Both the position numbers and the translations under genes were made by a program. The notes below the pieces were generated by a model. The model was not told the origin of the DNA, did no database searches, and worked only from the letters and a program-made list of their open reading frames with translations. From Pseudomonadota bacterium (GTDB lineage: Bacteria > Bdellovibrionota > UBA1018 > CAIMNF01), in the NCBI GenBank assembly GCA_027491115.1, contig JAIXWV010000034.1, forward strand, positions 1-64,000: DNA of 64,000 nucleotides, in the 5' to 3' direction. Every line of letters begins with the position of its first letter. The stretch's first letter is position 1. Below, one piece after another: positions 50,878 through 56,575 of the stretch.

Positions 50878-53715
50878 GTGAACGAAAAACAAGCAAAAAT
50901 TGTTGAATCACAAGGACTTGGACAGGCTGTAGTGGCAGGAGCCGGATGCGGGAAGACCACCACGCTCGTGGCGAAGTGCAAGGCCCTCATGCAGCGGAAT
51001 CCCGAAGCTCGATTCTGTGCCGTTTCGTTCACTGAAAAATCGGTTCGGGATCTGAGAGAGGCACTCACTCAGGGATTGCCGGGAGGAGAGTTGTCAGCCC
51101 ATTGGGTCAAGACCATCCATGGGCTCTGTTCTTCGATTTTGCGTGAGTTCCCTTCACAGTCCGGACTGCAGGGGGGCGAGAGGATTCTTCTTGAGGACGA
51201 ATCCGTGCGTTACTGGGAACGCAGTCTGGCGGTTCTCTGGACGTCGACGGACAACCTGGAAATCTCCGGGGCGGTGGATCGTCTGCTCGGAGTTTATTCC
51301 CGGAGCACCCTCGAAGCACTCCTGAAGAAGCTCCGTTCTCTTGAGTCTTTTGGAGTGGAACAATTCATCACCCGTTCATTCGACCGCCCGGAGGTCCGGG
51401 ACCTTTGGAGTGTCTTCTTATCGGTCAATCTTCGTTACAAACAGGCTAAAAATCGTGAAGGGGTTCTCGATTTCAACGATTTGGAGACTCGAGCTCGTCA
51501 GGCACTCGATTTTCCCGAAGTCAGGCGCCATTACCAGAGTCGATTTGATCTGGTGCTCGTGGATGAATTCCAGGATACCAACCCGATCCAAGGCGAGATC
51601 CTCGAGCGATTTGTCCGCCAGGATTATTCGAACCTCACCATTGTCGGAGATCCGAAACAATCCATTTATCGCTTTCGAGATGCCGATGTCAGCGTCTTTC
51701 AAGATCTCGTCAAGAAACTTCCCGAGCTCCATTTGTTGGACATCAACTACCGTTCCAGGCCCTCCATCATTCGATTTGTGAACGAGGTCTGTACACCGGT
51801 GTTCGAACTGAGTGCGCTTCCTTATGAGGCCTTGAGTGCGGGAAGGAATGAGGGCGGACCTGAGCCTTCCGTGATCCGGGTGGAGTGGGAGAGCGAGGAC
51901 GACTTGGCTCGTTATTTTCTCTCGCAGCGGGCCTCGGGTGTCGATTTCTCGGAATTCACGATTTTGGTCCGATCCCTCAGGAAAGAAAAAACGCGGACCT
52001 TCCTCGCAGCCTTGGAGAAGCACCGGATCCCGTTTCTTTTGGGAAGTGGTGGACGTTTTTACGAGGACCCACGGGTCAAGGAATTGGTCGCATTCTTGAA
52101 GGGTTGGCTTTCTCCGGGGAATCTTCTCTCCCAAGTAACAGCCCTTCGGAGTCCATGGATCGGGATCCCGGACGAGACTCTACTCAAGTGGTCCACGGCC
52201 CGGGGCGAGGACGGATATCTCCATCTTTTTTTCAAAGAGTCCGATCATCCTGTGGCACTCGCTCTTCGCGAAGCCTACCTGGGCCCCGACCGGATCTCGA
52301 GGTACCGTCCAGGCTTGATTCTCGCCCGCCTTCTGGAACTCGACTCTCTGGACGAACAGATGGTTCAACCGCTCTGTTCTTTGTGGCACAAGTGCGAGGA
52401 GCTGAGTCGTCAGGGGAGACGGTTTCATGAAATCGTCCAGACGCTTGCCCAATCCGTCGAGGATTCCAAGATCGAGCGGGAGGTTCCTGCACCGGCTGAA
52501 AAGGGCATGCTCCGGATCATGACGGTGCATGGTTCGAAGGGACTTCAATTTCCACGAGTGGTTTTACTCGATTTTGACGGCGAATACCGGGGCGGAGGTT
52601 CACCGGATCTGATCTGGGATCGGACCCAGGGTGTGCATTTGTTCGAGAGGGACGAAGAGGGACAGCGTCTGAAGGAGGGAAGCTCGAACGAGCGCTGGTC
52701 CGGCATCGAGAAGCAAGCCGCAGTGGCCGAAAGCAAGCGAGTCTTCTACGTCGCACTCACCCGACCTCAAGAACAATTGATCTTGGCTTGGAAAAAGGAA
52801 GTCAAGGTACGGAAAGCGGCTGAGCAACCCGATTACCGTCCGGGACTCACTGACAATTGGCGGGAGTGGGTGGAAGCGGTGGCTTTGCCCCCGGTATGGG
52901 AGCCTCAAGAATTGGACGAGAAGATCATTCCCCGATCTGATGTGAGCTCATTCGAGAAGGTCCGCATTCCAGACTTCAATCCCAGGCCTTACCGGGCCCG
53001 TCATTCGCCGAGCGAGTGGTTGGTGCTTTCTCAGTGCCCGCTCCGCTATCGATGGAAGTTCTGGGACGGTTTGGATGATTCAGAGGCCGAACAGAAAATT
53101 TTACCTGATTTGGATGCCGTTTCGGAAGCGGCCTCCGAGGTTGCGGATCAGGGAAAGCGCATTCACTCCCTGCTGGAGCACGAGGACTGGGATGGATTGA
53201 GGCAGGAGTTTGATGCCCCGGAAATCGCTGATCGGACTCTCCGGGAGCTTCGTGCTTCACTGGCTCGTGCGGATCAGGGAATCGACGTCCATCCCGAGCT
53301 CGGTTTTGAGGTTCCGCTCTCCTCCCGTGAGGCCTTGGTGGGGATGATGGATCGGTTGGAAGTGGATCCTGTCCGGAAAACCCTCCGGGTGGTGGACTAT
53401 AAATTCACGGCCCGGCCCAAATCTGCGGACACCCTGCTCAGTCATTATGGTCTCCAAATCCGACTCTATGCCTGGGCCGCGAGTCACCTGGTGGACTTTG
53501 TTCCTGAGCGTCTTGAGGGCGCCATCGCCCATTTCAGTCGCCAAGAGGGGCTCCGGTGGATCCCTGTGCCCGAAATGGATCGCGAGGCTCTCGAAAGCGA
53601 GGTCCGTGATTGGTTCAACAAGGCGAAAGTCGAGAATCTGTCCCCTTCCGAGGGCGATCATTGCCGCTATTGCGAATTCAGGGAGCGGTGTCCGGCGAAG
53701 CGGGATCAGGCTTGA
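50878..53715 (+). CDS. UvrD/AddA-like helicase fused to a PD-(D/E)XK nuclease with probable Fe-S site
   Basis: 945 aa. SF1A helicase with Walker A GAGCGKTTTL (about 21-30), motif II LVDEFQDTNPIQ (near 225), PKQSIYRFRDAD and C-terminal MTVHGSKGLQFPRVVLLDFD-type motif V (MTVHGSKGLQF) and VALTRPQEQL. The C-terminal nuclease has GMMDRLE and VVDYKF (near 839) as metal and catalytic residues. Four Cys in the AddB/Cas4 arrangement, one in SQCPLRYRW (near 719) and C-x2-C-x5-C in HCRYCEFRERC, suggest a 4Fe-4S lock. The start is GTG. Likely processes DNA ends for repair or recombination. Topoisomerase VI genes begin 53 bp downstream on the same strand. Confidence 0.88.
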   Translation: MNEKQAKIVESQGLGQAVVAGAGCGKTTTLVAKCKALMQRNPEARFCAVSFTEKSVRDLREALTQGLPGGELSAHWVKTIHGLCSSILREFPSQSGLQGGERILLEDESVRYWERSLAVLWTSTDNLEISGAVDRLLGVYSRSTLEALLKKLRSLESFGVEQFITRSFDRPEVRDLWSVFLSVNLRYKQAKNREGVLDFNDLETRARQALDFPEVRRHYQSRFDLVLVDEFQDTNPIQGEILERFVRQDYSNLTIVGDPKQSIYRFRDADVSVFQDLVKKLPELHLLDINYRSRPSIIRFVNEVCTPVFELSALPYEALSAGRNEGGPEPSVIRVEWESEDDLARYFLSQRASGVDFSEFTILVRSLRKEKTRTFLAALEKHRIPFLLGSGGRFYEDPRVKELVAFLKGWLSPGNLLSQVTALRSPWIGIPDETLLKWSTARGEDGYLHLFFKESDHPVALALREAYLGPDRISRYRPGLILARLLELDSLDEQMVQPLCSLWHKCEELSRQGRRFHEIVQTLAQSVEDSKIEREVPAPAEKGMLRIMTVHGSKGLQFPRVVLLDFDGEYRGGGSPDLIWDRTQGVHLFERDEEGQRLKEGSSNERWSGIEKQAAVAESKRVFYVALTRPQEQLILAWKKEVKVRKAAEQPDYRPGLTDNWREWVEAVALPPVWEPQELDEKIIPRSDVSSFEKVRIPDFNPRPYRARHSPSEWLVLSQCPLRYRWKFWDGLDDSEAEQKILPDLDAVSEAASEVADQGKRIHSLLEHEDWDGLRQEFDAPEIADRTLRELRASLARADQGIDVHPELGFEVPLSSREALVGMMDRLEVDPVRKTLRVVDYKFTARPKSADTLLSHYGLQIRLYAWAASHLVDFVPERLEGAIAHFSRQEGLRWIPVPEMDREALESEVRDWFNKAKVENLSPSEGDHCRYCEFRERCPAKRDQA

Positions 53716-53768
53716 CGCACCCCCGCATTGACGGGGGCGCCGGATTTTGATTCACTGTGGGGACACCT

Positions 53769-55418
53769 ATGGCGGACAGTAAAAAAATTTCGAGTTCCTC
53801 GACAGCCGAGTATTTTTCCAAGAATCTTCAACAGGTTGGCTTTTCGAGCCAGACCAAGGCTGTGCTGACGACGCTGAAGGAAGCGGTCGACAATGCGCTC
53901 GATGCGTGTGAGGAGCACGGGATCACCCCGGACCTGAAGGTCGAAATCGAGCGACTCGGGCCCGGATCCATCAAGAACTCCGAGCGGATCCGTGTGGTGG
54001 TCCAGGACAATGGTCCCGGGATCGACGGCGAAGATCTGCCCAAGGTTTTCGGTGAATACCTCGCATCCTCTAAGTTCGGACGCGGGCGTTGTACCCGAGG
54101 GCAGCAGGGGATCGGGATTTCCGCTGCGACCACGTGGGCCCAGCTCACCTGTGCGCAAGGCGCAAAAGTCGTCTCCAAGACGAAGGCCATGCGAAAAGCC
54201 GTGTCCGCTTTGATTGAAGTCGATATCAAGAACAACAAGGGTGTCATGAAGAATCGTGAGACTTTTGATTGGGACCGCCCCCATGGAACCCGGGTCGAAT
54301 TCATGTTTGACGGGCGTATCCAAATCAACGGGGAGGCAGGTCTTCTGAATTATCTGCTCGGTTCGACACTGGTGAATCCCCACCTCAATCTCGAATACAA
54401 GCTTCCGGATCAGGAATGGCAGAAGGTCGAGCGGGTCACCCAGGAAATGCCAATGATTCCTGAGGCGACCGAGCCGCATCCCCACACCATGAAGCTCGGC
54501 GAATTCATCGCCCATTCGCACTTGTTCGGTCGTCAAAAAGTTTCGATGTGGCTCAAGAAGGGCTTTAGCCGGATCGGTGATTCGGTGATCGACGAGATCG
54601 CCAAGAAGAAAGAGTTCGGGCTTCAGAAGTCGATGTTTGACAAGTTGGTGGATCAACTCCCAGACGGCGAATTGAACAAGCTTTTTTCCGCAATCCAGAA
54701 CACAGAGCTGAAAGCGCCCTCCACCAACTCCGTATTGAGCATCGGAGAAGACGCCCTTGCGAAATCCATCCAGCGACTCGGGAAGGTCGATTATTTTTCG
54801 GTCGTGACCCGTAAGCCCACGATTTGTGACTTCAAGCCAGTGCAAGTTGAAGTCGCCATCGCGCGACTTGAGTCAAAGAGCTCAGATGCGGACAACCCCG
54901 TACAGTTGCTTCGGTTCGCCAACCGGGTTCCGCTCCAGTTCGACAAATCGGCCTGTGCGATCGCCCAGTCGATCACCTCGGTGAATTGGCGTTCTTACGG
55001 CTTGGCGCAGCCCAAGGATTCTTTCCCGACCGGGCCGTACATATTTGCCGTTTCGGTAGTGTCGCCTTTCATCAAGTTCAAGAATGCATCGAAAGAAACC
55101 ATCGATGCCTCCGATGAGCTGGTTGAAGAGATCCGTCGTGCGCTGATGCAGGCCGGACAGAAGTTGTCCCGCTACATCAAGGCCGAGCACAAAGCCAACG
55201 AGCTTGAAGAGAAGATCCGGTACATCGAGCAGTTCGGTCCGATCCTGGTGGAAGGTCTGGCGCGCATCACGAATGCCAAGGAAGACCAGAAGAAACGTGC
55301 CCGTGAGGGCTTGTTGAAAATTCTCGGACGCGACGCGACTGCAACCGAGAAAGAGCTGACGGATGCCAACAAAAAGCTTGAAATCCAGAAAGCCAAGGAC
55401 GCAGAGGAGTCGGAATGA
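53769..55418 (+). CDS. top6B: DNA topoisomerase VI subunit B
   Basis: 549 aa, full length for the short form. The GHKL ATPase domain (1-220) has the N-box KEAVDNALDACEE (Asn42), QDNGPGI (80-85) and the glycine lid TRGQQGIGISAATTWAQ (110 on). Helix-2turn-helix follows at about 230-300, then the transducer with RFANRVPLQFDKSACA. Type IIB topoisomerases relax and decatenate DNA; they are universal in archaea and sporadic in bacteria. The start is ATG 53769 (GGGG about 6 nt upstream). It overlaps top6A by ATGA, so the two subunits are coupled. No horizontal-transfer marker (IS, tRNA) borders it. Confidence 0.95.
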   Translation: MADSKKISSSSTAEYFSKNLQQVGFSSQTKAVLTTLKEAVDNALDACEEHGITPDLKVEIERLGPGSIKNSERIRVVVQDNGPGIDGEDLPKVFGEYLASSKFGRGRCTRGQQGIGISAATTWAQLTCAQGAKVVSKTKAMRKAVSALIEVDIKNNKGVMKNRETFDWDRPHGTRVEFMFDGRIQINGEAGLLNYLLGSTLVNPHLNLEYKLPDQEWQKVERVTQEMPMIPEATEPHPHTMKLGEFIAHSHLFGRQKVSMWLKKGFSRIGDSVIDEIAKKKEFGLQKSMFDKLVDQLPDGELNKLFSAIQNTELKAPSTNSVLSIGEDALAKSIQRLGKVDYFSVVTRKPTICDFKPVQVEVAIARLESKSSDADNPVQLLRFANRVPLQFDKSACAIAQSITSVNWRSYGLAQPKDSFPTGPYIFAVSVVSPFIKFKNASKETIDASDELVEEIRRALMQAGQKLSRYIKAEHKANELEEKIRYIEQFGPILVEGLARITNAKEDQKKRAREGLLKILGRDATATEKELTDANKKLEIQKAKDAEESE

Positions 55419-56575
55419 GCACGAGAAAAGGCGGTAAACTTCAGAGTGAGATTCCAGGGCTCAGTAAAGCCCTGTGCATGAAACTTCTCAGTGACCTCGA
55501 GCGCGGAAAAAGACCGGTTTTGCACGCGACCAAGTGCTCTCTTGACAATGCGATTTACAATCACAAAGTCGGATATTTCACTCCCGGCGGAAAGAAGGTC
55601 GCAACCGAGCTGAACGTCAGCTCAGTGAAGAAAATGTCCCGGGCCGTCTTCATGCTCGAGATCCTGCTCCGGAACATCGATACCGGCGCCGTCAACACCA
55701 AGCGCGAGTTGTATTACATCAGCAAGGGTGAGACCAAAGGGACCCCTTCGTTGAAGCCCCTCGACTTCACTGAACAGGGCGAGAGCGATGACACCATCGA
55801 TTTCATCTGTGAATTGCTCGAGTGTTATCGCGAGGAGATGAACTGCTACGCCAACGACCGCGGTGGTCAGACCTATTCCCAGAATCTGGTGGTCACTGAA
55901 ACTCTCCCAGACGGGGACACGGCCGTGGTGGATCTGTCGAAGCTCGGTACTTCGCCTTTCCAACCGAAGAACCGTCCCCAGAACCTGAAGCTTTCGATGA
56001 AAAAGAAGATCGACTTCTGCCTGATCGTCGAATCCGAAGGTACCGCCAACACCTTGGTGGCCAACGGAATGACGAAGCGGCACAATTGTATTGTGATGGG
56101 TGCCCAAGGGGTTCCGTCGAATGCCGTCAGAGGATGGGCCAAGCTGATCCAAGATCAATTGAGCATTCCGATGTACTTCTTCGGGGACCTCGATGCCTAC
56201 ACCATGCAGAATATTTTCAGGACACTGAAGGCCGGGTCCGCGGCTTCATTGATCCGGAATCAAGACTACAGCGCTCCCGATGTCAGGTTTCTGGGAGTTC
56301 TGCCCGAGGACATCAAGAAATACGATCTGTTCGACTATCCGGTCAAAGAGAACGACGCCCAGGAAGTCCGGGCACTGAAAAAAGCAGATGACGCCCTCAG
56401 GAATGATCCCTTTTTCCAGGATAAAAAGAACAAGGGTTCAGCGGACATCCTCAGGTGGCTGATGAAGAACAAGCGGAGGTGCGAACAGCAAGCTTACTTC
56501 TCCGTGAACCCGAAGGATCCGACGATGCCGGAGAAGATCATCATCGACAAGATCAAGAAGGGCGAGTTCGTCTGA
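55415..56575 (+). CDS. top6A: DNA topoisomerase VI subunit A (Spo11-like)
   Basis: 386 aa, full length. The winged-helix 5Y-CAP domain contains TKRELYYISKG, with catalytic Tyr at 100/101. The Toprim domain has the metal Glu in LIVESEGT (Glu206) and the D-x-D in FGDLDAY (Asp258, Asp260), followed by RTLKAGSAASLIRNQDYSAPDV-type text (KAGSAASLI, VRFLGVLPEDI). Archaeal enzymes usually have D-x-D-P-[YW]-G; here the Pro and Gly are replaced (DLDAYT). All breakage-reunion residues needed for a type IIB enzyme are present. Coupled to top6B by a 4-bp overlap; follows the helicase-nuclease on the same strand. Confidence 0.95.
   Translation: MSTRKGGKLQSEIPGLSKALCMKLLSDLERGKRPVLHATKCSLDNAIYNHKVGYFTPGGKKVATELNVSSVKKMSRAVFMLEILLRNIDTGAVNTKRELYYISKGETKGTPSLKPLDFTEQGESDDTIDFICELLECYREEMNCYANDRGGQTYSQNLVVTETLPDGDTAVVDLSKLGTSPFQPKNRPQNLKLSMKKKIDFCLIVESEGTANTLVANGMTKRHNCIVMGAQGVPSNAVRGWAKLIQDQLSIPMYFFGDLDAYTMQNIFRTLKAGSAASLIRNQDYSAPDVRFLGVLPEDIKKYDLFDYPVKENDAQEVRALKKADDALRNDPFFQDKKNKGSADILRWLMKNKRRCEQQAYFSVNPKDPTMPEKIIIDKIKKGEFV

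Follow-up and report, generated by a model that had tools for sequence, protein, structure and literature searches.

Topoisomerase VI beside gyrase in Bdellovibrionota: near-exclusion of a second type IIA topoisomerase, a fixed Toprim variant and a copy in a jumbo phage

The window, i.e. the whole 64,000-nt stretch of DNA analysed here, encodes at 53769-56575 a full-length topoisomerase VI (topo VI) composed of a B and an A subunit (Table 1), and among 369 genomes of the phylum hardly any combines topo VI with a second type IIA enzyme. The gene pair very probably specifies a type IIB topoisomerase, a heterotetramer of A2B2 composition, that is the host's second type II topoisomerase and acts as a chromosomal decatenase beside gyrase. 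On a wider scale, we lean towards a scenario in which a type IIB enzyme permanently replaced topoisomerase IV (topo IV) as decatenase in most of the phylum and has evolved there as a core gene with a fixed DLDAYT motif, after which a jumbo phage of the phylum took over the enzyme to do, in its own replication, the work of the T4-type type IIA topoisomerase; this would be the sole phage-encoded topo VI in the collections searched.

Table 1. Position and basis of assignment of the topo VI features in the window
Feature	Position	Strand	Basis
top6B: topoisomerase VI subunit B (GHKL ATPase + transducer)	53769..55418	+	NF003218, PF09239, M. mazei Top6B matches
top6A: topoisomerase VI subunit A (winged-helix Tyr101 + Toprim E206/D258/D260/E357)	55415..56575	+	PF21180, PF04406, fold match
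Toprim metal-site codons in top6A, FGDLDAYTM (residues 256-264)	56177..56203	+	coordinates computed from A start 55415

The family, PDB and fold matches place the identity of the two products as topo VI far beyond chance. The top6B product scored above the cut-offs of PF02518, PF09239, NF003218 and TIGR01052, i.e. both the GHKL ATPase and the transducer are present, with E-values in the profile search of 4e-157 for NF003218 ('DNA topoisomerase VI subunit B') and 2e-45 for the Pfam transducer PF09239. The top6A product passed the cut-offs of its Pfam models, namely the TOP6A/Spo11 Toprim PF21180 (E 2e-36) and TP6A_N PF04406 (E 7e-13), and matched NF003335, its best NCBIfam model, with an E-value of 1.5e-116 and 389 bits, slightly below the curated cut-off of 424 bits. 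The top sequence matches in the PDB were M. mazei Top6B for B (1e-90) and M. jannaschii Top6A for A (3e-35). Moreover, Top6B, including the stretch between ATPase and transducer where an H2TH domain would be expected, aligns unbroken to residues 2-493 of M. mazei Top6B, and the AlphaFold model of Top6A (pLDDT 84.5) matched M. mazei Top6A in the cleavage state (9o0g) with a TM of 0.88 (E 1.6e-22). The two genes are separate and full length and overlap by the sequence ATGA, in agreement with the overlapping operon of two complete subunits described in the earlier note; top6B may alternatively begin at the in-frame GTG at 53757. Promoter and Rfam scans yielded nothing useful.

The catalytic elements previously read from the sequence (N-box, lid and RFAN in B; LYY tyrosine, Toprim Glu and D-x-D in A) are all present. 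That is, Top6B contains the GHKL N-box (E38, N42), DNGPGI, the RGQQGIGIS lid and RFAN (R382-N385), and in Top6A the residues R97, Y101 of LYY, E206, D258, D260 and E357 are invariant with archaea in the alignment. The latter are the equivalents of R102, Y106, E202, D254, D256 and E342 of M. mazei Top6A, described in PMC13040014, the R97/E357 pair being the counterpart of R102/E342. The alteration of the Toprim DPxG motif to DAYT was likewise confirmed: archaeal DGDPYG reads DLDAYT in Top6A, with the two metal-binding Asp retained. The lineage to which the window's genes belong (hereafter main lineage) shows DLDAYT in 105 of 105 loci covering the site, a count in which some genes are represented twice and which corresponds to 95 distinct proteins, the phage copy among them. 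A DPYG to DAYT change fixed throughout a lineage could be taken to mean an enzyme that acts like a nuclease or does not religate, in the way that Spo11 differs from topo VI. Such a reading is very unlikely, however: the metal-binding Asp pair, the catalytic Tyr and the acidic partners all persist in A, and B retains its entire ATPase and transducer, which sets it apart from the topo VIB-like partners of Spo11. The DAYT variant offers a defined Toprim change for study.

The operon is located in the interior of a 277-kb contig (G000:C42) that includes the window, in an assembly of 2.55 Mb and 45 contigs that is 98.7% complete. The topo VI family is best known from archaea, and a phage copy exists (L134, see below), both of which could fit top6 genes that are recent foreign DNA, acquired as archaeal contamination, a mobile element or a phage insertion. 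We consider this exceedingly improbable, given that all 12 of the 12 genomes of the genus carry the pair, that the locus lies well inside the contig, that the GC content of the top6 genes (53.9%) is close to that of the window (54.9%), and that the inheritance pattern is vertical; furthermore, a collection of phage records contained no match to Top6B, and plasmid matches were distant and mostly archaeal. The closest named loci are mostly metagenome-assembled genomes labelled Bdellovibrionota, the nearest being 99% identical in A. The native chromosomal bacterial enzyme proposed in the earlier note is thus upheld, the gene tree also following the GyrA tree, as is its placement on a diverged bacterial branch, which in our tree falls outside any sampled archaeal or plasmid group. 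The genes flanking top6B-top6A differ from family to family while the B-A pair itself is kept, and the idea that the operon belongs to a conserved island of defence or repair genes was therefore rejected. Directly upstream of top6B, at 50878-53715 (+), lies a gene for a UvrD/AddA-like helicase with a PD-(D/E)XK nuclease; such a helicase adjoins top6B in a minority of loci, mainly in close relatives.

The window's genome encodes one PF00521 protein, which is GyrA (box QGRGGKG), and one PF00204 protein, which is GyrB, directly upstream of gyrA. No ParC/ParE was found by the PF00521/PF00204 search of this 98.7% complete assembly, and a hidden topo IV was rejected, as the sole members of the two families are the gyrase subunits. 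A check for type IIA enzymes elsewhere in the genome, suggested at the outset, therefore returned gyrase without topo IV. The survey was then based on 369 genomes that kinship assigns to Bdellovibrionota. TP6A_N was detected in 211 of them and the transducer of Top6B in 212, giving a union, counted by hand from the A and B tables, of 214. The earlier description of topo VI as scattered in bacteria consequently does not fit within this phylum. Among these 214 genomes, 193 have one PF00521 match, 14 have none, probably owing to assembly gaps, and seven have several. Five of the seven owe this to one gene that is cut or frameshifted, and G368 has a partial extra match; the second gene of G367 was set aside, its GyrA-like box and long branch making it look like contamination.

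Conversely, topo VI (A and B) is absent from all 129 genomes of family f9, 107 of which have at least two PF00521 matches. The second gene, in the eight f9 genomes examined (L177-L184), encodes a very divergent ParC-like protein of ~475 aa without C-terminal domain and adjoins a GyrB/ParE-like gene. Also without topo VI are 13 mostly small genomes of families f23-f26 and 13 scattered assemblies (64-97% complete). An ordinary ParE-ParC pair is found in two f25 genomes, and searches with PF00521, TP6A_N and the transducer model revealed gyrase only, with neither topo VI nor topo IV, in the mostly small genomes of f23, f24 and f26 (G289-G296, G301); some other genomes, e.g. G162 (97% completeness), show gyrase alone as well. 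The contrast is strong, yet it represents a few clade-level evolutionary events and not hundreds of independent ones. Most sampled genomes of the phylum probably share a replacement of topo IV by topo VI, one branch having kept an enzyme of the usual type. The phylum can thus be viewed as a natural experiment, with families that possess gyrase and topo VI, gyrase and a ParE/ParC-like pair, or gyrase alone, and its cultured predatory strains are open to direct testing.

Enzymes of the topo VI family are A2B2 assemblies that use ATP to pass one DNA duplex across a break, staggered by two bases, in a second duplex. In the window's enzyme, ATP binding would lead B to dimerise and trap a second duplex, Tyr101 of A together with the Toprim metal site (E206, D258, D260, E357) would make the two-base-staggered break, and the trapped duplex would cross the break before it is resealed. 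Gyrase would then supply negative supercoils, and topo VI would decatenate sister chromosomes and remove positive supercoils, which is the job of topo IV elsewhere. With no type II enzyme detected apart from gyrase and topo VI, this double task is the best-supported role. The decatenase reading builds on the gene identity, the catalytic residues and fold, the gyrase-only type IIA content, the near-exclusion and the inheritance with GyrA; the two subunits would be expected to form the complex and perform strand passage, and the enzyme would most likely be the decatenase and may be essential.

It could also be that topo VI is accessory, serving e.g. positive-supercoil relaxation or recombination, and that decatenation of the chromosome is left to gyrase. 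The topo VI of S. shibatae is reported to be a poor decatenase (PMC8185306), so that positive-supercoil relaxation could be the main role, and the genomes with gyrase alone (f23, f24, f26 and others such as G162) suggest that cells may be able to do without a second type II enzyme. In addition, topo VI and topo IV occur together in some other bacteria (PMC11302465). Nevertheless, the accessory role appears unlikely, since well-assembled genomes show almost no loss of topo VI, the enzyme evolves at the pace of GyrA, and it nearly excludes the ParE/ParC-like pair. Allen & Maxwell (PMC11302465) treat the role of topo VI in bacteria as an unsettled question and mention, as unpublished data, complementation of an E. 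coli parE(ts) mutant by the topo VI of M. mazei.

Within the main lineage, A proteins are 68-99% identical to that of the window, and the comparison of Top6A and GyrA distances in 18 genomes gave a Mantel r of 0.80 (0/5000 permutations), with 84% of quartets in agreement and similar mean distances. This agreement suggests that topo VI has largely been inherited vertically, as a core gene. Families f27 and f28 (L083-L088), in contrast, encode a different, archaeal-like topo VI with DPYG, whose A subunit is 31-34% identical to the window's; the two families group together in the Top6A tree and apart in the GyrA tree. The main and f27/f28 lineages group together (98/91), on an extremely long stem that makes the tree fit one or two origins alike. 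Two haloarchaeal plasmids and three PDB proteins, whose sequences came from printed alignments, served as outgroups; with so few, the deep position is uncertain. Allen & Maxwell inferred at least two archaeal-to-bacterial transfers of topo VI (PMC11302465). In about half of the main-lineage Top6B proteins the C-terminus is extended by a variable, Lys/Ala/Thr-rich tail resembling histone H1: at least 30 extra residues are present in 49 of 102 loci, with up to 269 (e.g. L041, L037, L038, L035, L031, L040, L074, L056), and the tail is absent from the window's Top6B. These Lys/Ala-rich tails are possibly DNA-binding.

Both subunits of a DLDAYT-lineage topo VI, each complete and 65% (B) or 76% (A) identical to its counterpart in the window, are encoded at L134:3314-6137 on the 482,156-bp contig IMGVR_UViG_3300028558_000016 (L134), the only viral contig with topo VI in the collections searched. 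The phage copy comes from this single metagenomic contig, which is possibly a fragment. Sampled stretches of L134 (200 kb) carry genes for a major head protein, a head maturation protease, tail fibres and an RNA ligase/tail-fibre attachment protein, as well as a Dda-like helicase, UvsX, a split family-B DNA polymerase and 42 tRNA genes. The topo VI pair sits in the replication region, flanked by the two halves of the polymerase gene and followed by uvsX. The GC content (37.7%) and GC3 of the pair have been ameliorated to the values of the phage and do not fit those of the hosts (48-63%), evidence against a chimera. The L134 record contains no PF00521 or PF00204 match, and topo VI thus appears to occupy the place that a type IIA topoisomerase takes in T4-like phages. 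In the A tree the phage copy is nested in the window's order (96/93), and likewise, with weaker support, in the B tree; a basal position was not rejected (AU p 0.33 and 0.42). In BFVD no protein shared the fold of A at E <= 0.001, and A had no PHROG match. Judging by the phage copy, topo VI can apparently serve in the replication machinery of a virus.

Among known systems, archaeal topo VI (M. mazei 2q2e/9o0g, M. jannaschii 1d3y, S. shibatae 2zbk) shares with the window's enzyme the domain order, the fold, the catalytic Tyr, the Toprim acidic residues and the GHKL and transducer motifs, but the A subunits are only about 20-30% identical and DLDAYT stands for DGDPYG; the window's enzyme is accompanied by a bacterial gyrase, a combination also known from some archaea. 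Another member of the type IIB family is Topoisomerase VIII / Mini-A, described as mostly homodimeric and borne by mobile elements (PMC8185306). Instead of a single short or fused form on a mobile element, the window has two separate genes that overlap, lie on the chromosome and reach the full length of topo VI. Bacterial topo IV (ParC/ParE), which is absent from the window's genome, has the same proposed cellular role with the other domain arrangement of a type IIA enzyme.

The closest parallel is Bdellovibrio bacteriovorus, of the same phylum, whose topo VI (Bd2864; PMC11302465, PMC11318664) has A and B subunits and accompanies gyrase, ParC/topo IV being absent (Allen & Maxwell 2024, PMC11302465), as in the window's genome; loci named Bdellovibrio in our survey belong to the same DLDAYT lineage. 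A topo IV has been claimed in this species as Bd0005 (PMC11318664). We set this assignment aside, because in the complete f11 chromosomes (G134, L147) the only PF00521 protein lies near the contig start and has the GyrA box, so that Bd0005 is probably a misannotated GyrA. Gyrase with topo VI and without topo IV is therefore a type already known in one species of the phylum. Allen & Maxwell sampled one species per family, and the available part of their article (PMC11302465) contains neither the phylum-wide exclusion nor the DLDAYT signature, the f27/f28 second lineage or the phage copy. What is new here is the near-exclusion at the scale of the phylum, the fixed Toprim variant, that second lineage and the copy carried by a phage.
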